From NCBI GenBank assembly GCA_921293015.1, contig OV121090.1, forward strand, positions 2,294,001 to 2,358,000: DNA of 64,000 nt, given 5' to 3'. Position numbers and translations under genes: made by a program. The notes beneath the pieces were generated by a model. The model saw nothing but the letters and a program-made list of their open reading frames with translations. It searched no databases and was not told the origin of the DNA. This document shows positions 71 through 44,600 of the stretch, in pieces. This DNA is from Phorcus lineatus. Lineage: Eukaryota > Mollusca > Gastropoda > Trochida > Trochidae. Position 1 is the stretch's first letter. Each line of letters starts with the position of its first letter.

Positions 71-182
71 CTTGGCCAGCTGGTCAAATCTTCCGAACAA
101 TTCATTCAACATCTTCACGAGCTCGGCTGCTGTGCAGTCTGCAGCTAGAGGAGTGAAGTTGACGATGTCTGCATACAGGATG
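71..182 (-). CDS. ADCY: adenylyl cyclase exon: C1a catalytic core with metal-binding Asp
   Basis: This 112-nt exon completes the Ser of VSILYADIV and runs to [13 protein letters not shown] before a consensus donor GTAAGA, ending in phase 0. The Asp in ADIVNFT is the first of the two metal-ligand aspartates of class III cyclases. Vertebrate ADCY1-4 and ADCY7 generally have Gly where Asn stands here. The acceptor is TTGTTTATCTGCAG. The next exon, which would hold RIKILGDCYYC, lies beyond the left edge. Confidence 0.95.
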
Positions 183-3100
183 CTGCAGATAAACAACATA
201 CCATCATCAGCACCTCAAACTGATTACAGAAAAAGTGTTAGAAATAGATTTTCATACAAAGTATTGACTATTAACAAGTGGACTTGATGGGCGAAACCTT
301 TGATCTTTGGCTGTTTTTTGTCAATTATTCTATGCCTACTGAATTTATGTTTCAGAATATAGATTCAATCATTCACACATCTAAAGCAAATTTTACGTCT
401 TTTTCTGCAAAATGCCTATCAAAGAAGCTGCAACATTCTCAAATGTTTGTTGTGGTCAAGGCTGGTTATAATCGAGCGATAATAGGAGTGTTCAGATTTA
501 CTGATTATATAATGATAATATCATCTTGGGTAGGCTCTAAGTTCAATATCCTTGATGAATATAATCACTCTCCATCACTTCAAACTGAAAACTTAATCTT
601 TAACCTGGAAGGGCGAGGGTTTGGGAGGACACCTACCTGACATCTGTGTAGTGCTGGACATACAGATCCTGGAAGGGCGAGGGTTTGGGAGGACACCTAC
701 CTGACATCTGTGTAGTGCTGGACATACAGATCCTGGAAGGGCGAGGGTTTGGGAGGACACCTACCTGACATCTGTGTAGTGCTGGACATACAGATCCTGG
801 AAGGGCGAGGGTTTGGGAGGACACCTACCTGACATCTGTGTAGTGCTGGACATACAGATCCTGGAAGGGCGAGGGTTTGGGAGGACACCTACCTGACATC
901 TGTGTAGTGCTGGACATACAGATCCTGGAAGGGCGAGGGTTTGGGAGGACACCTACCTGACATCTGTGTAGTGCTGGACATACAGATCCTGGAAGGGCGA
1001 GGGTTTGGGAGGACACCTACCTGACATCTGTGTAGTGCTGGACATACAGATCCTGGAAGGGCAAGGGTTTGGGAGGACACCTACCTGACATCTGTGTAGT
1101 GCTGGACATACAGATCCTGGAAGGGCGAGAGGTTTGGGAGGACACCTACCTGACATCTGTGTAGTGCTGGACATACAGATCCTGGAAGGGCGAGGGTTTG
1201 GGAGGACACCTACCTGACATCTGTGTAGTGCTGGACATACAGATCCTGGAAGGGCGAGGGTTTGGGAGGACACCTACCTGACATCTGTGTAGTGCTGGAC
1301 ATACAGATCCTGGAAGGGCGAGGGTTTGGGAGGACACCTACCTGACATCTGTGTAGTGCTGGACATACAGATCCTGGAAGGGCGATGGTTTGGGAGCTTT
1401 ACTCATCATCTGCTGTTGTAGATCTTCCTTCATCTCCTCCACCAGGTTGCTCGGGATACAGCTGATCAGTAACTCCTCCTGAAAATGTTATTAATTATCA
1501 TAATAATAGAGAGACAAAACACTTTGTTGTTCTTTTAACAAAGTAAATTTGAAAAATCTTGTTTTGACCTTGGCACTAAACTGCCACTATGCGGTGGCAG
1601 GTTAAGCTTTTTCTATCCTTTTGATGTTTGGTGCCAAGCAAGGAAGATAAAAGTCCCATTTTTCATGTCTTTTGGTAGCGCGCAACCCGAGTGATACCCT
1701 GATCTTCAGATTGAATATTATAACTCCAAGTATTCCTGACCTTAAATTGATTTTACACATATCACTGAGAGAAGTTAATAATTGCATTAAAAACCTTTTC
1801 AAATTCATTGATTTAAATTTGCTATACATTTTTTTAAGGGGTATACCAGTTTTTTATGTCTTGCCTTGTTGAGAGAACCTATGTCAGGTCAGGATCAAAC
1901 CTACTTAGTGACATGAATTCTTACTCCTTAACTGAATATATCTTATCATGTAACATATCATGAGACATTAATATTGAATAGCAGTAATCCGTATCCCTTT
2001 ACTTGTTCAAACAAAACAGGGAAGGTTGCTAGACACTTTAGGGATAAAAAACTTCCATCTTCAAAATTATTTGAAGAATTTCAACTTGTGCTACATTGTA
2101 AAAAGTATTGCTCAAGGTTAAAGAGACACATCCAAGGACAGATTTGGAGTTCAGATTACAAAGCTAAGATAATGTTAGGACAATTCTAAGAGACTGATAA
2201 GAGAATTCTAGTATAATGCTAAGGCAATGCTAGGACAGTGTTAAGACCACACTAGTATAATGCTAAGATAATGCAAAGCCACTGCTAAGAAAAGGCTTAG
2301 ACAGTGCTAAGACAATTCTAAGGCAATTTTATAAGAATTTTATAACAATACTTAGACAATGCTAAGACAATACCAAATCAATGCTAAATCAATGCAAAGA
2401 CAATGCTAAAGCTATGCTAAAAGACTCCAACCGACCTGCTGCTTCTTCTCCCTCTCCAGCTTGATGCTGGCCTCGACAGAGTTGCGAGCGTCCAAGAAGG
2501 CCTTGCGGTGAGTGATGTCAGACAGAGACTTGTGGTACAGTCCAACCAGGTTAGCACAGAGCAACACCACTGCATTGGACACCAGCTGGAAGAGTCATCA
2601 AATAGACGTGACTTCATGGATGTATGTGAACAATTCCTATTTTCTTTCTGTTTCCAAAGTTGGTATGCACCAGCTGGAATGGTATCAAGATAAATGATTC
2701 ATGATTTTACTATTTATAATGAGATACTCATATGACTAACCTGTTGTGGCAGATTCTCAGTCAACTTGTTTGAGAGAAGGCCAGAGAGGAGCAGCTCCAA
2801 CACGAAGGAAACACCTCCCAGGAGGAGCGACCATCTTTTAGGTAGGGGGAGCATCATGTAGCCCACCAGGGTAACATAGAAAACAATGGGGACGTCATCA
2901 GCGGGAGTTCGTTGTGTGCTGAAGCTGAAGTAGAGTGAGGACAGGACAATGGACGTGAGCCAGATGGATGCGGACAGGGGCGTGGTGTGCTTCTGAAAGA
3001 TGCGGCGGAGGCTGGTGAACACCACGAGGAACACGATCAGGAGCACCCCGCACCCCAGGATCGACACCTGCGCCGTTCTCGTGAAGCTCTGTGGAAATGA

Positions 3101-6100
3101 AAGCATCATATGTTCTTCTCAAGTGTTACAAGTCAATTCATACAAAATTTCATCATGTAATTGATCATGATACAAGACGATGTTATGGATGACAACTTCT
3201 TTATTTATTTTTTCAAACGTTGTGAAAAAATAAATAAAGAAGTTGTCATCCATAACATTGTCTTGTATCACTACACCAACTTCTAAATGCCTTTGAAGAA
3301 GTTCGTAATTGATCATGTCAACAATCCAGAGGAAGTACCTCTTTGGTACAATATTCAAGGCAACAGATTAAGAAAAAACAAATGTCAAAATTTTCTTCTA
3401 TACACTCTATATATACTTCTCAACATTGGGCAGTTGGAAGTCCGCTGAAGAAATATTGAAGAAATTTTATGTATTAAAATGATCTAATGCTTAATGTCTT
3501 CAAAAAACCTTCATATCATTAGCACTTCGTAAAATTTATTGTAAAGCTTTGAAGTAATGAACATCTTTTTCAAACAAATGTTTCAAGTATATTTCTATCA
3601 TAGCCATCTTAAGCACATATCTGACCTCCAACTGACCTTATTGACCTCGCCCCGAGCAAGCTGAACGATGATCATGATGGCAGACACCAAGATGGCGACC
3701 CCGAGGTACATGAGAATGAGCGGCTGTTTGATCTGAATACTGTAGTGGTGGTACAAGTCCTCCAGGTCCATCTCCTTAAAGGACAGCTGTGGATACAAGA
3801 AACTAGGATCAACATTTCATAAAAAGGTCCATCTCCTTGAAGGACAGCTGTGGTTACAAGAAGCTGGGATCAACATTTCACAAAGAAGTCCATCTCCTTG
3901 AAGGACAGCTCTGAATACAAGAAACTGGGATCAACATTTCATACAGAAGTCCATCTCCTTGAAGGACAGCTGTGGATACAAGAAACTGGGATCAACATTT
4001 CATAAAGAGGTACATCTCCTTGAAGGACAGCTGTGGATAAAAGAAGCTGGGATCAACATTTCATAAAGAGGTACATCTCCTTGAAGGACAGCTGTGGATA
4101 CAAGAAGCTGGGATCAGCATTTCATAAAGAGGTACATCTCCTTGAAGGACAGCTGTGGATACAAGAAGCTGGGATCAACATTTCATAAAGTGGTACATCT
4201 CCTTGAAGGACAGCTGTGGTTAAGATAAGCTGGGATCATCATTTCATAGAGAAGTCCATCTCCTTGAAGGACATGTGCAGCTGTGGATACAAGAAGCTGG
4301 GATCAACATTTCATAAAGAAGTCCATCTCCTTGAAGGACAGCTGTGGATACAAGAAACTGGGATCAACATTTCATAAAGAGGTACATCTCCTTGAAGGAC
4401 AGCTGTGGATACAAGAAGCTGGGATCAACATTTCATAAAGAAGTCCATCTCCTTGAAGGACAGCTGTGGATACAAGAAGCTGGGATCAACATTTCATAAA
4501 GAGGTACATCTCCTTGAAGGACAGCTGTGGATACAAGAAGCTGGGATCAACATTTCATAAAGAGGTACATCTCCTTGAAGGACAGCTGTGGATACAAGAA
4601 GCTGGGATCAACATTTCATAAAGAGGTACATCTCCTTGAAGGACAGCTGTGGATACAAGAAGCTGGGATCAACATATCATAAAGTGGTCCATCTCCTTGA
4701 AGGACAGCTGTGGATACAAGAAACTAGGATCAACATTTCATACAGAAGTCCATCTCCTTGAAGGACAGCTGTGGATACAAAAAGCTGGGATCAACATCTC
4801 ATAAAGAGGTACATCTCCTTGAAGGACAGCTGTGGATACAAGAAGCTGGGATCAACATTTCATAAAGTGGTACATCTCCTTGAAGGACAGCTGTGGTTAC
4901 AAGAAGCTGGGATCAACATATCATAAAGTGGTCCATCTCCTTGAAGGACAGCTGTGGATACAAGAAACTAGGATCAACATTTCATACAGAAGTCCATCTC
5001 CTTGAAGGACAGCTGTGGATACAAGAAGCTGGGATCAACATTTCATACAGAAGTCCATCTCCTTGAAGGACAGCTGTTGATACAAGAAGCTAGGATCAAC
5101 ATTTCATAAAGAAGTCCATCTCCTTGAAGGACAGCTGTGGATACAAGAAACTAGGATCAACATTTCATACAGAAGTCCATCTCCTTGAAGGACAGCTGTG
5201 GATACAAGAAGCTGGGATCAACATTTCATACAGAAGTCCATCTCCTTGAAGGACAGCTGTGGATACAAGAAGCTGGGATCAACATTTCATAAAGTGGTAC
5301 ATCTCCTTGAAGGACAGCTGTGGTTAAGAGAAGCTGGGATCAACATATCATAAAGTGGTCCATCTCCTTGAATGACAGCTGTGGATACAAGAAACTAGGA
5401 TCAACATTTCATACAGAAGTCCATCTCCTTGAAGGACAGCTGTGGATACAAAAAGCTGGGATCAACATTTCATAAAGAGGTACATCTCCTTGAAGGACAG
5501 CTGTGGATACAAGAAGCTGGGATCAACATTTCATAAAGTGGTACATCTCCTTGAAGGACAGCTGTGGTTAAGAGAAGCTGGGATCAACATATCATAAAGT
5601 GGTCCATCTCCTTGAAGGACAGCTGTGGATACAAGAAACTAGGATCAACATTTCATACAGAAGTCCATCTCCTTGAAGGACAGCTGTGGATACAAGAAGC
5701 TGGGATCAACATTTCATACAGAAGTCCATCTCCTTGAAGGACAGCTGTGGATACAAGAAACTAGGATCAACATTTCATAAAGAAGTCCATCTCCTTGAAG
5801 GACAGCTGTGGATACAAGAAGCTGGGATCAACATTTCATACAGAAGTCCATCTCCTTGAAGGACAGCTATGGATACAAGAAACTAGGATCATCATTTCAT
5901 AAAGAAGTCCATCTCCTTGAAGGACAGCTGTGGATACAAGAAGCTGGGATCAACATTTCATAAAGAAGTCCATCTCCTTGAAGGACAGCTGTGGATACAA
6001 GAAACTGGGATCAACATTTCATAAAGAGGTACATCTCCTTGAAGGACAGCTGTGGATACAAGAAGCTGGGATCAACATTTCATAAAGAGGTACATCTCCT

Positions 6101-9100
6101 TGAAGGACAGCTGTGGATACAAGAAGCTGGGATCAACATTTCATAAAGTGGTACATCTCCTTGAAGGACAGCTGTGGTTAAGAGAAGCTGGGATCAACAT
6201 ATCATAAAGTGGTCCATCTCCTTGAATGACAGCTGTGGGTACAAGAAACTAGGATCAACATTTCATACAGAAGTCCATCTCCTTGAAGGACAGCTGTGGA
6301 TACAAGAAGCTGGGATCAACATTTCATAAAGAAGTCCATCTCCTTGAAGGACAGCTCTGAATACAAGAAACTGGGATCAACATTTCATACAGAAGTCCAT
6401 CTCCTTGAAGGACAGCTGTGGATACAAGAAACTGGGATCAACATTTCATAAAGAGGTACATCTCCTTGAAGGACAGCTGTGGATAAAAGAAGCTGGGATC
6501 AACATTTCATAAAGAGGTACATCTCCTTGAAGGACAGCTGTGGATACAAGAAGCTGGGATCAGCATTTCATAAAGAGGTACATCTCCTTGAAGGACAGCT
6601 GTGGATACAAGAAGCTGGGATCAACATTTCATAAAGTGGTACATCTCCTTGAAGGACAGCTGTGGTTAAGAGAAGCTGGGATCATCATTTCATAAAGAAG
6701 TCCATCTCCTTGAAGGACATGTGCAGCTGTGGATACAAGAAGCTGGGATCAACATTTCATAAAGAAGTCCATCTCCTTGAAGGACAGCTGTGGATACAAG
6801 AAACTGGGATCAACATTTCATAAAGAGGTACATCTCCTTGAAGGACAGCTGTGGATACAAGAAGCTGGGATCAACATTTCATAAAGAAGTCCATCTCCTT
6901 GAAGGACAGCTGTGGATACAAGAAGCTGGGATCAACATTTCATAAAGAGGTACATCTCCTTGAAGGACAGCTGTGGATACAAGAAGCTGGGATCAACATT
7001 TCATAAAGAGGTACATCTCCTTGAAGGACAGCTGTGGATACAAGAAGCTGGGATCAACATTTCATAAAGAGGTACATCTCCTTGAAGGACAGCTGTGGAT
7101 ACAAGAAGCTGGGATCAACATATCATAAAGTGGTCCATCTCCTTGAAGGACAGCCGTGGATACAAGAAACTAGGATCAACATTTCATACAGAAGTCCATC
7201 TCCTTGAAGGACAGCTGTGGATACAAAAAGCTGGGATCAACATCTCATAAAGAGGTACATCTCCTTGAAGGACAGCTGTGGATACAAGAAGCTGGGATCA
7301 ACATTTCATAAAGTGGTACATCTCCTTGAAGGACAGCTGTGGTTACAAGAAGCTGGGATCAACATATCATAAAGTGGTCCATCTCCTTGAAGGACAGCTG
7401 TGGATACAAGAAACTAGGATCAACATTTCATACAGAAGTCCATCTCCTTGAAGGACAGCTGTGGATACAAGAAGCTGGGATCAACATTTCATACAGAAGT
7501 CCATCTCCTTGAAGGACAGCTGTTGATACAAGAAGCTAGGATCAACATTTCATAAAGAAGTCCATCTCCTTGAAGGACAGCTGTGGATACAAGAAACTAG
7601 GATCAACATTTCATACAGAAGTCCATCTCCTTGAAGGACAGCTGTGGATACAAGAAGCTGGGATCAACATTTCATACAGAAGTCCATCTCCTTGAAGGAC
7701 AGCTGTGGATACAAGAAGCTGGGATCAACATTTCATAAAGTGGTACATCTCCTTGAAGGACAGCTGTGGTTAAGAGAAGCTGGGATCAACATATCATAAA
7801 GTGGTCCATCTCCTTGAATGACAGCTGTGGATACAAGAAACTAGGATCAACATTTCATACAGAAGTCCATCTCCTTGAAGGACAGCTGTGGATACAAAAA
7901 GCTGGGATCAACATTTCATAAAGAGGTACATCTCCTTGAAGGACAGCTGTGGATACAAGAAGCTGGGATCAACATTTCATAAAGTGGTACATCTCCTTGA
8001 AGGACAGCTGTGGTTAAGAGAAGCTGGGATCAACATATCATAAAGTGGTCCATCTCCTTGAAGGACAGCTGTGGATACAAGAAACTAGGATCAACATTTC
8101 ATACAGAAGTCCATCTCCTTGAAGGACAGCTGTGGATACAAGAAGCTGGGATCAACATTTCATACAGAAGTCCATCTCCTTGAAGGACAGCTGTGGATAC
8201 AAGAAACTAGGATCAACATTTCATAAAGAAGTCCATCTCCTTGAAGGACAGCTGTGGATACAAGAAGCTGGGATCAACATTTCATACAGAAGTCCATCTC
8301 CTTGAAGGACAGCTATGGATACAAGAAACTAGGATCATCATTTCATAAAGAAGTCCATCTCCTTGAAGGACAGCTGTGGATACAAGAAGCTGGGATCAAC
8401 ATTTCATAAAGAAGTCCATCTCCTTGAAGGACAGCTGTGGATACAAGAAACTGGGATCAACATTTCATAAAGAGGTACATCTCCTTGAAGGACAGCTGTG
8501 GATACAAGAAGCTGGGATCAACATTTCATAAAGAGGTACATCTCCTTGAAGGACAGCTGTGGATACAAGAAGCTGGGATCAACATTTCATAAAGTGGTAC
8601 ATCTCCTTGAAGGACAGCTGTGGTTAAGAGAAGCTGGGATCAACATATCATAAAGTGGTCCATCTCCTTGAATGACAGCTGTGGGTACAAGAAACTAGGA
8701 TCAACATTTCATACAGAAGTCCATCTCCTTGAAGGACAGCTGTGGATACAAGAAGCTGGGATCAACATTTCATAAAGAGGTACATCTCCTTGAAGGACAG
8801 CTGTGGATACAAGAAACTGGGATCAACGTCTTACCTCATATATGGCTCCAGAGAGTGCAAAATTACATGATGACACATTATGGATCAATTACTTAAGTTT
8901 TGAAATAATGTTTGTTGTTCTGCAATAGCATTGGTATAAGTGTCTTATGGTCCATAAATGCTTTAGTATTCTTAAAGGTCCCCTCATCTTACAGAGAGCT
9001 ATAGTTACAGTTAGGTCTCTACAAATCAACTTACTTCATGCTGAATCTTCATGTAACGTGAGGCCATTTTCTCTTCAAATAAAATCGGGCTATCAAATAT

Positions 9101-12100: not shown

Positions 12101-12674
12101 TTAGAAAAACTTGCCACAATTCTCAAATATTGGCAAGCCCCGCATTGCATAAGTATTAATCTATTAACTGATCCCAACTGATAGCCAGGCTTGCTGGCCA
12201 CAAATGGGCACCTCTGAAAAAATAGACAAACACTAACTGAAAGGCGGACAACTTCTCATTCATTGGCCATCTTTTCCTTGACCCCCTATAGGTGTACTTG
12301 AGAATTGCTTTGACAAATAACATGAAATTGCTTAGAATCAAACAAGATCATCAGTCCCCGGTTTAGGATATCTATGAGCACCTTCATGCAATAAAAAGTT
12401 ATGAATAACAAGCTGGTAGTGATGTGAGGCAATGCTGAGAAAACAATCAGGGAATTGAAAATCACAGAAAACAAATCCCTGAATGATCATATACAGTTTT
12501 GAGTAGAGCTGTTACCTTTATTTCCTTAAACGGCATATCATCTGAGGAAGATTTCCTGGCGCCACTATCATCCTCCCCGCCCTTCACCAGATGGGTGCGA
12601 CTCCCCGCCACCGATGTCAGGCTGAACACGCTCTCACACGCCTTCGGACTCGTCACCTCTAGCGTCACCGCCAT
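71..12674 (-). CDS. ADCY: membrane adenylyl cyclase, ADCY2/4/7-like, 5' part of gene (six coding exons, continues past base 1)
   Basis: This enzyme makes cyclic AMP from ATP at the plasma membrane downstream of G proteins. Exons 12516-12674, 3637-3786, 2741-3088, 2436-2585, 1342-1478 and 71-182 join with GT..AG borders and matching phases into 352 codons with no stop. In order the protein shows a hydrophilic N-terminus (about residues 1-75), six hydrophobic helices (about 78-240), a charged linker ending in EREKKQQ, the [17 protein letters not shown] segment typical of the C1 entry, and [18 protein letters not shown] with the metal-binding Asp of ADIVxFT, followed by [13 protein letters not shown]. 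Vertebrate ADCY2, as I recall it, reads [18 protein letters not shown] and LNELFGKFDQIAK, so group II (ADCY2/4/7, fly Ac76E) is the best fit; this rests on memory, not alignment. The Gly after IV in vertebrates is Asn here. The rest of C1, the second membrane bundle and C2 must lie left of the window. Two introns carry exon-derived minisatellites. Confidence 0.95.
183..603 (-). other. intron sequence, no gene seen
   Basis: This is the non-repetitive, AT-rich part of the intron between the 137-nt and 112-nt cyclase exons. Nothing beyond the splice acceptor next to 182 is recognisable. Confidence 0.7.
604..1341 (-). repeat. 64-bp minisatellite built from exon end plus splice donor (11 intronic copies)
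   Basis: Copies follow each other every 64 bp, with one 65-bp unit near 1128. On the gene strand each unit is the last 53 nt of the 137-nt cyclase exon followed by 11 nt of intron starting GTAGGTGTCCT. Each unit therefore repeats the code for [13 protein letters not shown] and a complete donor. The donor GT lies at 1340-1341 for the real exon and recurs down to 635-636, an offset of 11 x 64 + 1. Reading past any donor gives AGG TAG, a stop. Because 64 is not a multiple of 3, open frames on this strand span exactly three units and are artefacts. Copies are almost identical, so the expansion is recent or homogenised. Confidence 0.97.
1342..1478 (-). CDS. ADCY: adenylyl cyclase exon: entry to catalytic domain C1
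   Basis: This 137-nt exon (starts phase 0, ends after two bases of a codon) encodes [20 protein letters not shown], then [20 protein letters not shown] and HYTDV plus AG of the next Ser codon. The donor is GTAGGT. Its last 53 nt together with the donor were amplified into the 64-bp array immediately downstream. The real exon reads CCCAAACCATCG where the copies read CCCAAACCCTCG (one copy differs by a 1-nt insertion), so real and copied sequence can be separated. Confidence 0.93.
1479..2435 (-). other. intron with a degenerate 10-11-bp repeat near the upstream exon
   Basis: This intron of about 950 bp holds a short inverted repeat at 1581-1600 (CTGCCAC...GTGGCAG). From about 2155 to 2420 it holds a decayed tandem repeat on the theme AATGCTAAGAC. 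The rest is AT-rich with no recognised element. Confidence 0.6.
2436..2585 (-). CDS. ADCY: adenylyl cyclase exon: helix 6 and linker helix
   Basis: This 150-nt, phase 0/0 exon encodes helix 6 ([17 protein letters not shown]), then [13 protein letters not shown] and a charged helix ending [10 protein letters not shown] before the donor GTCGGT. The charged stretch corresponds to the signalling helix that couples the membrane bundle to C1. ADCY2 has a closely similar LVANAVLFLCGN and LEFEKRQQ at these points, as recalled. The acceptor is TGACTCTTCCAG. Confidence 0.93.
2741..3088 (-). CDS. ADCY: adenylyl cyclase exon: helices 2 to 5
   Basis: This 348-nt exon (116 codons, phase 0/0) encodes four hydrophobic segments: around [49 protein letters not shown] and [20 protein letters not shown]. 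It starts SFTRTAQV after the acceptor TTTCCACAG and ends ENLPQQ before the donor GTTAGT. The third codon position is G/C-biased compared with the flanking introns. The helix spacing fits the first six-helix bundle of membrane cyclases. Confidence 0.93.
3089..3636 (-). other. intron with a long hairpin
   Basis: This is the intron between the 150-nt (helix 1) and 348-nt cyclase exons. Apart from the inverted repeat annotated separately it is AT-rich and featureless. Confidence 0.6.
3168..3270. repeat. near-perfect 47-bp inverted repeat (hairpin) in cyclase intron
   Basis: Arms 3168-3214 and 3224-3270 are reverse complements with a single mismatch and a 9-nt loop. The arms include ATGTTATGGATGACAACTTC. 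In the pre-mRNA this would fold into a long stem. It is probably a fold-back MITE, but no flanking duplication was identified. Confidence 0.9.
3637..3786 (-). CDS. ADCY: adenylyl cyclase exon: end of N-terminus and helix 1
   Basis: This 150-nt, phase 0/0 exon encodes [20 protein letters not shown] and then helix 1 ([18 protein letters not shown]), ending LARGEVNK before the donor GTCAGT. Its acceptor (TTGTATCCACAG) and first 22 nt were amplified into the 61-bp array that begins at once upstream of it in transcription order. The genuine exon can be told from the copies because its Phe codon in LSFKE is TTT, whereas the copies read TTC. Confidence 0.93.
3787..8827 (-). repeat. 61-bp minisatellite built from splice acceptor plus exon start (82 copies)
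   Basis: On the gene strand each unit is about 39 nt of intron with a pyrimidine tract and CACAG acceptor, then 22 nt of exon (CTGTCCTTCAAGGAGATG and a few bases). The junction recurs from the real exon at 3781 to 8795, which equals 82 x 61 plus two 6-bp insertions (near 4272 and 6718). A 2446-bp block of 40 units is duplicated head to tail: the marker variants GCTCTGAATAC (3908, 6354) and GCTGTGGGTAC (6232, 8678) recur at exactly that offset. Splicing to a copy would give [12 protein letters not shown] and a stop. Minor variants (GGTTAAGAGAAGC, CATATCATAAAG) define sub-families. Confidence 0.97.
8828..12515 (-). other. remainder of the large first coding intron
   Basis: This is AT-rich sequence with poly-T tracts (9941-9954 and elsewhere) and a TA/GTAT microsatellite at about 11547-11590. 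A GACAGACAGA-type dispersed repeat is annotated separately. A donor-like AGGTAAG at 8831-8837 has no usable partner acceptor. No coding segment is supported. Confidence 0.6.
10925..11045. repeat. fragment of a molluscan-type dispersed repeat (GACAGACAGA tail)
   Basis: The run GAACAGACAGACAGACAGA, then GGCGGACAGATAACAGAG and a short C-rich/G-rich pair (ATCCCC...CGGGGGATGA) resembles an interspersed repeat I associate with bivalve genomes. The identification is from memory of that pattern, and no ends or target duplications were found. Confidence 0.4.
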
Positions 12675-12692
12675 CTTGGTCTCTTGTACTAT
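12516..12692 (-). CDS. ADCY: adenylyl cyclase start exon (ATG at 12674)
   Basis: The coding part is 159 nt, 53 codons, opening [16 protein letters not shown] and ending DDMPFKEIK, followed by a donor GTAACA in phase 0. An acceptor (CCTGTAG) lies about 20 nt upstream of the ATG, so a short 5'-UTR is included. The exon is clearly richer in G and C than its flanks. It encodes the soluble, poorly conserved N-terminal tail that precedes helix 1 in membrane cyclases. It joins in frame to the exon starting LSFKEMDL. This ATG is chosen because it is the only in-frame Met near the acceptor and sits in an AAGATGG context. Confidence 0.8.
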
Positions 12693-21782: not shown

Positions 21783-22955
21783 AACATACTCTGTGTCACT
21801 TTCAGGTGCTATATACCCACCATACTCTGTGTCACTTTCAGGTGCTTCCCACCATACTCTGTGTCACTTTCAGGTGCTACCTAACATACTCTGTGTCACT
21901 TTCAGGTGCTTCCCAACATACTCTGTGTCACTTTCAGGTGCTATCCACCATACTCTGTGTCACTTTCAGGTGCTACCTAACATACTCTGTGTCACTTTCA
22001 GGTGCTACCCAACATACTCTATGTCACTTTCAGGTGCTATCCACCATACTCTGTGTCACTTTCAGGTGCTACCTAACATACTCTGTGTCACTTTCAGGTG
22101 CTTCCTAACATACTCTGTGTCACTTTCAGGTGCTATCCACCATACTCTGTGTCACTTTCAGGTGCTACCTAACATACTCTGTGTCACTTTCAGGTGCTTC
22201 CCAACATACTCTGTGTCACTTTCAGGTGCTATCCACCATACTCTGTGTCACTTTCAGGTGCTACCTAACATACTCTGTGTCACTTTCAGGTGCTACCTAA
22301 CATACTCTGTGTCACTTTCAGGTGCTACCTAACATACTCTGTGTCACTTTCAGACGCAACCCACCATACTCTGTGTCACTTTCAGGTGCTTCCCACCATA
22401 CTCTGTGTCACTTTCAGGTGCTACCTAACATACTCTGTGTCACTTTCAGACGCAACCCACCATACTCTGTGTCACTTTCAGGTGCTTCCCACCATACTCT
22501 GTGTCACTTTCAGGTGCTACCTAACATACTCTGTGTCACTTTCATGTGCTACCCACCATACTCTGTGTCACTTTCATGTGCTACCTACCATACTCTGTGT
22601 CACTTTCATGTGCTACCTAACATACTCTGTGTCAATTTCAGGTGCTACCTAACATACTCTGTGTCACTTTCAGGTGCTACCCACCATACTCTGTGTCACT
22701 TTCAGGTGCTACCCACCATACTCTGTGTCACTTTCAGGTGCTACCCACCATACTCTGTGTCACTTTCAGGTGCTACCCACCATACTCTGTGTCACTTTCA
22801 GGTGCTTCCCAACATACTCTGTGTCACTTTCAGGTGCTTCCCAACATACTCTGTGTCACTTTCAGGTGCTACCCAACATACTCTGTGTCACTTTCAGGTG
22901 CTACCCACCATACTCTGTGTCACTTTCAGGTGCTTCCCAACATACTCTGTGTCTC
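21783..22955. repeat. 32-bp tandem array (37 copies) with acceptor-like TTTCAG in each unit
   Basis: The unit is CATACTCTGTGTCACTTTCA followed by GGTGCTACCCAC. CATACTCTGTGT recurs from 21785 to 22941: one first interval of 36 bp, then 35 intervals of 32 bp. The last unit changes to CTCTGTGTCTCAGAC. All three plus-strand frames of a 96-bp triple unit lack stops, which explains open frames of up to 234 codons; no protein is inferred. Each unit has the form of a splice acceptor on the plus strand. Confidence 0.95.

Positions 22956-29493: not shown

Positions 29494-29571
<78 letters not shown>
29494..29571. repeat. AAT trinucleotide microsatellite
   Basis: This is an uninterrupted AAT/TAA run of about 78 bp. 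It creates an isoleucine-only stretch in one frame, which is an artefact. Confidence 0.98.
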
Positions 29572-36886: not shown

Positions 36887-37098
36887 GGTACCAAATCATC
36901 CAATCTCAAAGTAATCAAATAATCCAATCACAAGGTTGCCAATCATCAAATCACAAGGTTACCAAATGATCCAATCACAAGGTTTCCAAATCATCCAATC
37001 ACAAAGTAACCAAATCATCCAATCACAAGATTGCCAATCATCCAATCACAAGGTTACCATCATCCAAAAACAAAGTAACCAAATTATCCAATCGCAAC
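36887..37098. repeat. degenerate 22-24-bp tandem array (about 9 copies)
   Basis: The theme is ATCATCCAATCACAAGGTTA followed by CCAA, with variable spacing and many substitutions. The core CCAATCACA repeats regularly and contains a CCAAT word, though the array looks like an ordinary decayed minisatellite. Confidence 0.85.
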
Positions 37099-37099
37099 G

Positions 37100-40000
37100 T
37101 ATATATGCAGAAACGTAAAAGAATGATTGAATCCTGCACTGGCAGAGGGAAGTGGGATGTATGGTGAGACTGTGAAATGTACATGCACTAAACCCAGCTG
37201 ACAGAGCCTGATAGTGATGACCGGTCCCAGATGGACGCCCCGGGGGCAAGGATCAAACACTAAGAACTTAAGTCTGCTGTAGACTCAATTGAAACGGCTG
37301 CCAATCTTCACAAGATGGAGACTTATAGTTGAGGGTGGATTATATTTAGCCCAAAGTGAATATAAGAAATACAAAGTGTTTCTGATAACTTACATCTTAA
37401 TTAAAAGTTCTGAGTTTTAGATACATCTAATTCATATTGGAATTGGAATTTCTAAAACAATGAAGTACAGTGGAGTCAAATGGAATGAGCTTTTTAGACA
37501 ATTTGAGTTTTTCAAAAAAACTCTTTTTATGTCATTGTTGGTTTTTGCCTCCTTATAATTTTGAAGCAGAAGATTTCCAATTAAATAATTTTGATTTACC
37601 ATCAAGTTTTTCATTAATTACTTATAATTCTCACATAGGAAGTCTAATTATTACACTAAAATAGCTAAATACAGTATCTAAATATTTGAAAATTCAAAAT
37701 TATCTATTAAATGATAACATGATTTCAAACTTAATTAACAAACTTGACATTAATTAAGTTGCAAGCACACCTCCAAACTAGCCTGTGGTCATATATATAT
37801 ATGAATAATGATATGAAAGATATATAAATGATCATTCAGGTATGCATGGTGATTAGGGGATGATACAGGTGAGGGCTACAGGTGATACATACAGGTGTTA
37901 CTTCCTGATTCAGGTAACGAGCAGGATACAGGTATGATGATCAATGTATTATCTGAATTCTGTCATAATGTGATGGTTTTGTTAACATATATATATCAAT
38001 ATCATAAATTCTATATACTTGTATTCTGCACAGGCAAATATGTATTTCAATACTGTTGTACTATGTGCTATGCCTTATAACATCATAGCCAGCTAATTCT
38101 AAGTAGATTGGTATTACATAGTCATACAATTTAAGTGAGAAATTTTAACATCAATGGAATTCTAAACTTCATTCTTATCTCAATAAAATCAATTTAAAGC
38201 TATCACTCATATTCTCTGCTTTTCTAATCTGAGTACTAGCTGCCTAGGGAGGCTTGACCTGATTTAAATGAGATTGACTTTCAATTATGTCTTTCTGTTT
38301 TCATGTTTTATAATTATGTACCAAAAGTTCTATGTATCTCTTGCTTTATAACAGCATAAGTATCTCCAAGAAAACCATGTCTCTGTTCTTTTGTCTTTCT
38401 TTAATCTTGCACAGAGAGGATAGTACATTTGTTTAAACAATCATTCCAATCTTGTAGAGGTAGGTGATAAATCCCATAGCCCCCTATGCAGGGACACCAA
38501 AGCATATGATTTAATTGTAAAACATTGCATATATGTCAATAAAAAGATTGTGATGATAAAAATCATCTGAATATTCTAGCATCAGATTACAATCAGGGCA
38601 TATGAATGTTGAGGGGAATAGTTTCTAAGGATATTCATTCATAGGATTTTAAAGTAAATGTTTCATTTATAAAGGTGATTCCTTTGTGATGGGAAGTTCT
38701 CTTAGTGTCTTGAGACCAATCATTGAAGAACAAAACATCAAAATCTTCATAAACATAGTGAAAGGGAAACATCAAATTGTGCAAAGACATTTGTATTCCG
38801 TAATATTTCCAAGATATTGTCAAGTTATATGAATTCTTGTGCTATATTCATCATTTGATATATTGACCTTAAAACAATATGTTTTAATATCAATATCATC
38901 CATACTAATTAACACTGCCTTTGTTATACACTTCTTTAGTTTTAATTGGTGGATAGAGTCACATGACCTGTAGTTACTGTATCAGAATTTATTAGTCAAG
39001 AAATGTTGTAGATACTTCATCAGAAGTTACTGGTAAAGAAAAGACTACAATTTTATGATTGACCACCTTCTGTGTTCAAGACGTCATTTGGTATGATTAA
39101 ATGTGAATCACGTGTAGAAAATCTTACCTTTAGCATAAACAAGTAGAACCATATGCATGTACAATTCTACTGACTTATCAATTTTCATATTTGTCTTACT
39201 TTACAAAAAATCATTGGAGTCCATGACTTGCCTCCATATCTAAACTAACTAGGAAACTGGCATGGTGCTTTGACATAATGCAAAAATCTTTTAGTAGTCC
39301 ATGATTTATTGACTCTGTAAAGAATTCTAACCCCTCACAAATAATGTTATTTTTGATAAAAACAAAGGGTTATTATGTAAATGCTTTATAAAAAGATGCA
39401 CACATAGACTGAGATATAAGAGATAGTGACTGATCAATATCCTCATGTAGTCAATGATAGATACTACTTCATCAGTAACTAATTATCAGCTATAATCAGT
39501 TTCTTGCCTAAGGTGTGGATGAATGACACGGTAAGCTTACATACCAATCATCTCAATTAATTAAATGTCATTTAGGACATAATTGATATACTCCAAGACG
39601 CACATCGATCATAATTAATATCATACCATTTTCATTCATATTTTTGAGTATCAACTTGTGGATCCAGGAATTTTGAAAGAAGGGGTTCACTATTGAAAGG
39701 GGGGGGGGGGGGGGTTAAGGGGGAAAGAGTCCAAACCCATTTTTGAAAAAAATTCATAAGGGGAGGGGGCTCCAAACCCACTGAACCCCTCTTCCCCTCC
39801 ACTGAACTTTTTAAATGAAAATGAATCATTTTTTTCATCTGACAAATCCTTTTGATGAGTTTATGATATTTACAAGTGTTTAACTCTCTCAAAAAAATCA
39901 TTGTCCATGTGTTTTTCCTTCATTTCTTAAATCCCTTAAAAAGTCCTTGAGGGACATAGTTAATACTCAAGGCGATTTACAAATTCACAGTGATAAAATA

Positions 40001-43799: not shown

Positions 43800-43814
43800 C
43801 ACAGACAGACAGAC

Positions 43815-43902
<88 letters not shown>

Positions 43903-44384
43903 ACACACAGAGAGAGACAGAGACAGTGAGAGAGACAGAGACAGTGAGAGAAAGACAGAGAGAGACACAGAGAGAGACAGACAGTGAGAGAGAGACACAG
44001 AGAGAGACAGAGACAGTGAGACAGAGACAGTGAGACAGAGACAGTGAGAGAAAGAGAGAGACACAGAGAGAGAGAGACAGTGAGAGAAAGACAGAGAGAG
44101 ACACAGAGAGAGACAGAGACAGTGAGAGAGAGACAGAGAGAGACAGAGAGACACAGAGAGAGACACAGACACAGAGAGAGACACAGAGAGAGACACAGAG
44201 AGTCACAGAGAGATAGACAGAGACAGTGAGACACAGAGAAAGACAGAGACACAGAGAGAGACAGTGAGAGAGAGACACAGAGAGAGACAGAGAGAGACAC
44301 AGAGAGATAGACAGAGACAGTGAGACACAGAGAGAGAGACAGAGACAGAGATAGAGACAGAGACAGAGACAGAGACAGACAGAC

Positions 44385-44435
<51 letters not shown>

Positions 44436-44600
44436 TACACAGACAGACAGGAAATGAGAGAGACACAGAGACAGACAGAGACAGACAGAGACAGGGACCA
44501 GAGAGAGACAGGCAGACAGACAGAAAGAGAGACACATAGATAGACAGACAGAAATACAGACATACAGACAGCCAGATACAGACAGACAGAGGGACAGACA
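43800..44600. repeat. GA / CAGA purine tract of about 800 bp
   Basis: A pure GA run (43818-43899) gives way to mixed ACAGAGAGAGACAGAGACAG units with patches of higher-order repetition, then a second GA run (44388-44431) and CAGACAGA units. The plus strand is almost all purine plus C. Long open frames rich in Ser, Leu and Cys (minus) or Arg and Glu (plus) are by-products. Confidence 0.97.

Follow-up and report, generated by a model that had tools for sequence, protein, structure and literature searches.

Exon-edge minisatellites in an adenylyl cyclase gene of the gastropod Phorcus lineatus and their probable identity as mirages

In a 64,000 nt stretch of the Phorcus lineatus genome (hereafter the window; C16:2294001-2358000 of the 957.8-Mb assembly), a transmembrane adenylyl cyclase gene carries two long intronic arrays of tandem repeats, each built from the edge of one of its own exons. 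The 3′ edge of exon 5 recurs together with its donor in array A, and the 5′ edge of exon 2 recurs together with its acceptor in array B. We consider it very likely (a probability of roughly 85%) that both arrays are 'mirages', as minisatellite-like tandem repeats across intron-exon boundaries have been called in amphioxus, and that they arose by neutral duplication across the boundary followed by array growth. The repeated splice sites are most likely functionally neutral decoys. The snail arrays are remarkable for their copy number, for the presence of two in one gene and for the phylum in which they occur.

Amplified exon edges in the cyclase gene

Similarity of its predicted product identifies the host gene, which runs on the minus strand, as a transmembrane adenylyl cyclase. 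Exons 1-6, modelled from homology, phase and splice sites, yield an uninterrupted frame of 352 amino acids when spliced via the authentic sites, and the joined exons match the Pfam families AC_N (3.7e-26) and Guanylate_cyc (3.7e-10) as well as AC8 (1.9e-37) and AC5 (1.4e-36), their best matches in PDB. The gene extends beyond the window edge after exon 6, and profile matches to the cyclase family continue on the minus strand from C16:2293684 to 2279145. Exon 1, for which Pfam gave no family match when run alone, is probably the upstream partner of exon 2 across the array B intron, as phase and splice sites suggest. An alternative exon ending at 8835 and adjoining array B (GAG/GTAAGA; the slash marks the junction) was rejected because all frames leading up to it are interrupted by a stop no further than about 60 nt away, while exon 1 fits in phase; an exon of very small size may nonetheless end at this position.

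Each unit of array A joins the final 53 nt of exon 5 to 11 intronic nt. Reading unit by unit, we found 12 donors, namely the authentic site at 1342 and 11 decoys downstream of it. GT is kept at all 12, and each decoy carries the authentic 9-mer CAG/GTAGGT. Use of any of the 11 decoys would place a TAG stop as the first full codon past the authentic junction. The exon carries CCA at a synonymous site, which is seen in none of the 12 downstream copies; 10 of these read CCCTCG, one reads CCCTTG and one has an extra T. In each unit an acceptor-like CCCTTCCAG lies 32 nt ahead of the donor, which makes every decoy a complete potential micro-exon of 32 nt. Acceptors were scored on a simple consensus scale, whose position frequencies are approximate vertebrate values. 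On this scale CCCTTCCAG scored 1.7 in the copy belonging to the exon and 3.1-3.8 in the 11 that follow downstream, and the six acceptors of the cyclase gene within the window ranged from -2.7 to 4.1.

Array B consists of units of 39 intronic nt and 22 nt of the 5′ edge of exon 2, two of which contain a 6-nt insertion. The same reading gave 83 acceptors, the authentic one at 3786 and 82 upstream decoys. AG is kept in 82/83, the decoy at 7153 reading GG, and a stop follows all 81 AG-bearing decoys after 11-13 codons (12 codons in 77 cases, 11 in two and 13 in two). The bulk of the array is one recent block duplication of 2446 bp: once the 6-nt insertion had been removed from the two units, 38 of the 41 unit pairs spaced 40 units apart were identical. 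The 82 decoys comprise 26 distinct unit types. At its own synonymous site, exon 2 reads TTT and all 82 decoys read TTC. Thus, the boundary units of both arrays escape homogenisation, since the inner copies never share the synonymous base of the exon.

A preliminary description, made from the letters of the window alone, had placed arrays with units of 64 and 61 bp at exon edges of one adenylyl cyclase gene, and Tandem Repeats Finder (TRF), our unit reading and the Pfam and PDB matches agree with it, including the exon shares of 53 and 22 nt. Its counts of 12 donors and 83 acceptors were also reproduced but include the authentic sites, so that the decoys number 11 and 82, and one acceptor is without AG. 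The proposal that only the first donor and the last acceptor keep the frame held for all 92 decoys of both arrays that retain GT or AG, each of which gives an in-frame stop. The arrays do lie on opposite sides of their exons as described, but this geometry is forced, because the protein survives only if a donor-edge array grows downstream and an acceptor-edge array upstream.

Two further repeats lie in introns of the same gene. The intron between exons 2 and 3 holds a 48-nt inverted repeat with 98% complementarity and a 7-nt loop (3168-3270), either a hairpin or an element resembling a miniature inverted-repeat transposable element. A degenerate 11-bp unit (ACAATGCTAAG), repeated 24 times at 2158-2420, begins no more than 20 nt from the donor of exon 4 and stops short of the exon.

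Table 1. Arrays and modelled exons of the cyclase gene, in window positions, and mirages at other loci, in the positions given for each locus.
Feature	Position	Strand	Description
Array A	604..1396	-	TRF: 64-bp unit, 12.4 copies, 99% matches
Array B	3764..8827	-	TRF: 61-bp unit, 82.8 copies, 92% matches
Block duplication in array B	3882-6332 vs 6328-8778	-	2446-bp tandem block, 3 differences (offset self-comparison)
Coding exon 1	12516..12692	-	ATG at 12674; acceptor CTGTAG, donor AAG/GTAACA; open frame; phase 0 end
Exon 2	3637..3786	-	first 22 nt are the exonic share of array B; AC_N similarity across joined exons
Exon 3	2741..3088	-	frame and splice-site model
Exon 4	2436..2585	-	frame and splice-site model
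Exon 5	1342..1478	-	last 53 nt are the exonic share of array A; authentic donor CAG/GTAGGT
Exon 6	71..182	-	Guanylate_cyc match; downstream partner across the array A intron
L011	1632-2098		donor type; 47 bp, 10 units
L006	about 900-1540		donor type; 109-126 bp, 6 units
L009	1732-1991		donor type; 84 bp, 3 units, degenerate
L087	458-800		donor type; 97-124 bp, 3 units, degenerate
L081	200-413		acceptor type; 90 bp, 3 units, few exon nt

Exon edges across the genome

We surveyed the edges of 47 of the 129 cyclase-family matches, the window's own gene being excluded, and of 52 of the 64 dynein AAA_8 matches, the latter picked where exons adjoin closely and therefore biased to short introns. An edge was scored as positive when a same-strand copy matching at least 24 of 30 nt lay within 700 nt. 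Seven of the 198 edges were positive, and on reading the repeat spans a splice site at five of them; at the other two, in L004 and at 3054 of L081, the repeat lacks a splice site. L035 was also set aside, its array sitting 60 nt outside the exon match. Local duplication was seen in 128 of 1963 intron and flank blocks, which lie more than 100 nt from listed matches and may include some unlisted exons, and in none of 89 exon-interior blocks from 28 cyclase loci. The same measure gave 188/1223 blocks in the window from 8900 onward. Compared with introns, edges carried fewer duplications (Fisher p 0.028 for 5/198 or 0.12 for 7/198). Thus, exon edges are not duplication hotspots in the surveyed sample. 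Because the ends of protein matches differ at times from exon ends, the 2.5% found here may underestimate how often true exon ends carry mirages.

The five splice-site-spanning repeats are further mirages, one belonging to a dynein exon and the rest to cyclase exons outside the window gene, and they are found at differing stages of decay (Table 1). Together with the window gene, they place such arrays in several genes of one genome. GT is lost from 5 of the 18 decoy donors in the four donor-type mirages (1/9 in L011, 2/5 in L006, 1/2 in L009 and 1/2 in L087), and both decoy acceptors of L081 keep AG.

Other searches returned no additional mirage. With a similar measure, none of 60 edges was positive at myosin loci (30 of 128 matches), many of which come from one tandem gene cluster and which were excluded from the 198 edges and from the controls. 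In the rest of the cyclase gene (L070 and L071), where part of the exon ends were modelled, there are short arrays only, none recognised as a mirage. Apart from one 15-nt match for the array at 36890-37101, the first units of 13 window arrays, A and B included, had no match outside their own array. An introner-like mobile element was rejected as the origin of array B, as a genome DNA search with this array scored at its own locus only.

Origin of the arrays and competing explanations

Mirages have been described in the amphioxus genes Adh3, BflGb6 and BflGb9, the latter two encoding globins (PMC3087553), and in TnC, which encodes troponin C, and PGBD5 has repeats that resemble them imperfectly (PMC3902484); the Adh3 and TnC cases are given as cited in these papers. 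According to PMC3087553, the BflGb6 and BflGb9 mirages occur at 5′ and 3′ boundaries, contain decoy AG and GT sites, differ in length between haplotypes and have boundary units outside homogenisation. The two snail arrays share with them a unit made of an exon edge plus a splice site, the involvement of both boundary types, many copies of AG or GT and an unhomogenised boundary unit. On our exon model the repeat unit spans the exon-intron boundary in both arrays, GT or AG is carried by nearly all copies, and the boundary unit is spared at one synonymous site each. Instability of array length, another feature of mirages, gains indirect support from the recent 2446-bp block duplication of array B. 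This literature refutes the suggestion in the preliminary description that no such system was known. The snail differs in being a mollusc rather than a cephalochordate, in having two arrays in one gene and in being known from one assembly; BflGb6 has 6 and 3 units in two haplotypes, whereas array B has 83 copies over 5 kb. In the literature covered, mirages under that name are otherwise described in amphioxus, and a full-text search of open-licence literature, which is weak evidence of absence, found none in a mollusc.

Three other systems bear partial resemblance. Human internal tandem repeats in genes of segmental duplications can likewise extend across exon-intron boundaries, differ in copy number and yield alternative splicing or new introns, but their mean size is 4 repeats of 30 bp and half lie in coding exons, whereas the snail arrays reach 12 and 83 copies and are nearly all intronic (PMC2812944). 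The 'decoy exons' of detained introns in OGT and other genes resemble the array A units in offering unproductive intronic acceptor and donor sites; they are individual exons with a function tested in OGT, whereas array A is an amplified edge of the gene's own exon and is characterised by its sequence (PMC12017769). The intronic minisatellite of abalone TSSK1-like, with a 27-bp unit, is likewise from a gastropod and varies in length among individuals, but an exon edge is not part of its description in the text covered (PMC6905558).

The arrays would have been seeded by a chance short tandem duplication across an exon-intron boundary, which brings a second splice site. The outermost copy would then delimit the correct exon and the inner copies would become intronic. 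Since a splice site is duplicated along with the exon edge, an event of this kind would be tolerated, whereas a duplication within an exon would damage the protein and be removed by selection. Duplication everywhere combined with selection within exons would produce the gradient from exon interiors (0/89) through edges (7/198) to introns and flanks (128/1963). Slippage or unequal exchange could have enlarged and partially homogenised the arrays, in steps of up to 2.45 kb, as the block duplication in array B suggests. The authentic site is most likely chosen via exon definition, since pairing it with a matching site at the opposite edge gives the shortest exon (137 and 150 nt). We infer this mutational mechanism, the mode of splice-site choice and the neutrality of the decoys.

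The intactness of the window decoys (11/11 donors and 81/82 acceptors) reveals little about selection, because array A is near-uniform and array B was recently block-duplicated. Among the 81 decoys compared, 18 of the 61 columns of the array B unit are variable, including one of the two AG columns, and the chance of at least one variable AG column is 0.51. This result is in line with an absence of special protection for AG.

Several observations weigh against a neutral origin of the mirages or limit it. The exon-derived columns of array B vary less than the intronic ones (3/22 vs 15/39, Fisher p 0.047), a difference not predicted under plain drift, in a test that is weak since columns share history and are not independent. 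By the simple consensus score, decoy and real sites differ little in strength, and 13 of 81 decoy acceptors match or outscore the authentic one. Moreover, the surveyed edges are ends of protein matches rather than confirmed exon ends and represent part of two gene families.

The preliminary description had offered two origins, a neutral accident and a splice-site buffer or brake. The former is favoured by the similar arrays at other edges, the lack of an excess at edges and the decayed decoys elsewhere, and no positive evidence emerged here for the latter. As a brake, the arrays would act as 'decoy exons' that draw U1 and U2AF to unproductive sites, the introns would be detained or mis-spliced, and array length would tune cyclase output. 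A stop does follow from every site-keeping decoy, and array A provides an intronic acceptor and donor that could together delimit a pseudo-exon, CCCTTCCAG at 3.1-3.8 and CAG/GTAGGT at a distance of 32 nt, reminiscent of human OGT, where the sites of the decoy exon are reported to promote intron detention (PMC12017769). We nevertheless regard a brake as very improbable: GT is missing from more than a quarter (5/18) of the decoys in the remaining four donor-type mirages, the surveyed edges are not enriched in duplications, and the 99% uniformity of array A means that its intact decoys cannot demonstrate maintenance. Reverse transcription PCR suggested regular splicing of the amphioxus globin genes, whose mirages thus apparently leave splicing undisturbed (PMC3087553). 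Little credence is likewise given to a rheostat, in which the 11 decoy micro-exons of array A and the 81 decoy acceptors of array B would feed stop-bearing or detained RNA and a rapid change in array length between individuals or cells would set cyclase output. The same slight weight covers its wider form, in which mirages would be common in the gastropod genome and would provide a lasting reservoir of variant splice sites and of sequence from which introns could be gained.

Inflation or duplication of the arrays by the assembler, chiefly of the 2446-bp blocks of array B, is a slim prospect. The blocks differ at only 3 positions per about 2450 nt, and the BflGb6 mirage in amphioxus reportedly has an apparently aberrant draft assembly (PMC3087553). 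However, the blocks are not identical, the contigs examined, at 35-79 Mb, suggest long-read data, and the 26 unit types among 82 decoys imply a large array even if one block were false. It is also hard to credit that exon edges are mutational hotspots, for example via the difference in composition between exon and intron, where mirages would arise beyond random seeding. The window has 12 exon edges, and the binomial P of arrays at two of them is 0.035 if the 2.5% from the edge survey is taken as the rate but 0.18 with the intronic 6.5%; exons of the gene beyond the window would weaken both values. The survey likewise found local copies to be rarer at edges than in introns and flanks.

The presence of mirages in a mollusc, with 83 units in one array and with further cases at 5/198 sampled edges, suggests that minisatellite-rich genomes produce them generally and that they are not peculiar to cephalochordates. 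They would also serve as natural experiments on splice-site choice, in which 81 acceptors and 11 donors compete with the authentic sites and a stop follows each miss. The route to intron gain that was proposed from the amphioxus globin mirages (PMC3087553) could be tested on the snail arrays.

Other repeats and gene clusters

Beyond the cyclase gene, 10 open reading frames of the window were run against Pfam and none scored above the cut-off, and the window had no Rfam match at gathering scores. A 32-bp unit repeated 36 times at 21783-22953 contains CACTTTCAG/GTGCTACC, which is splice-like on the plus strand; no exon was recognised beside it, and the unit has no match elsewhere within the window. 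The window also contains an AG-rich stretch of 730 bp (43803-44532) and about 25 TAA units (29495-29571).

Elsewhere in the assembly, some twelve myosin-head genes, whose reading frames are long, stand in tandem at G000:C2:56253553-57074307. The molluscan haemocyanin domain PF14830 gave 16 matches in two clusters of eight, at G000:C12:7646582-7661095 and 16557773-16572398. These haemocyanin genes point to a gastropod mollusc, and on their account an amphioxus origin, which the mirage literature had brought to mind, was rejected; the 957.8-Mb assembly also disagrees with the genome size of amphioxus. The best PDB match of the haemocyanin unit tested was 3j32, 'Hemocyanin isoform 1', an entry that we take to be from Haliotis.

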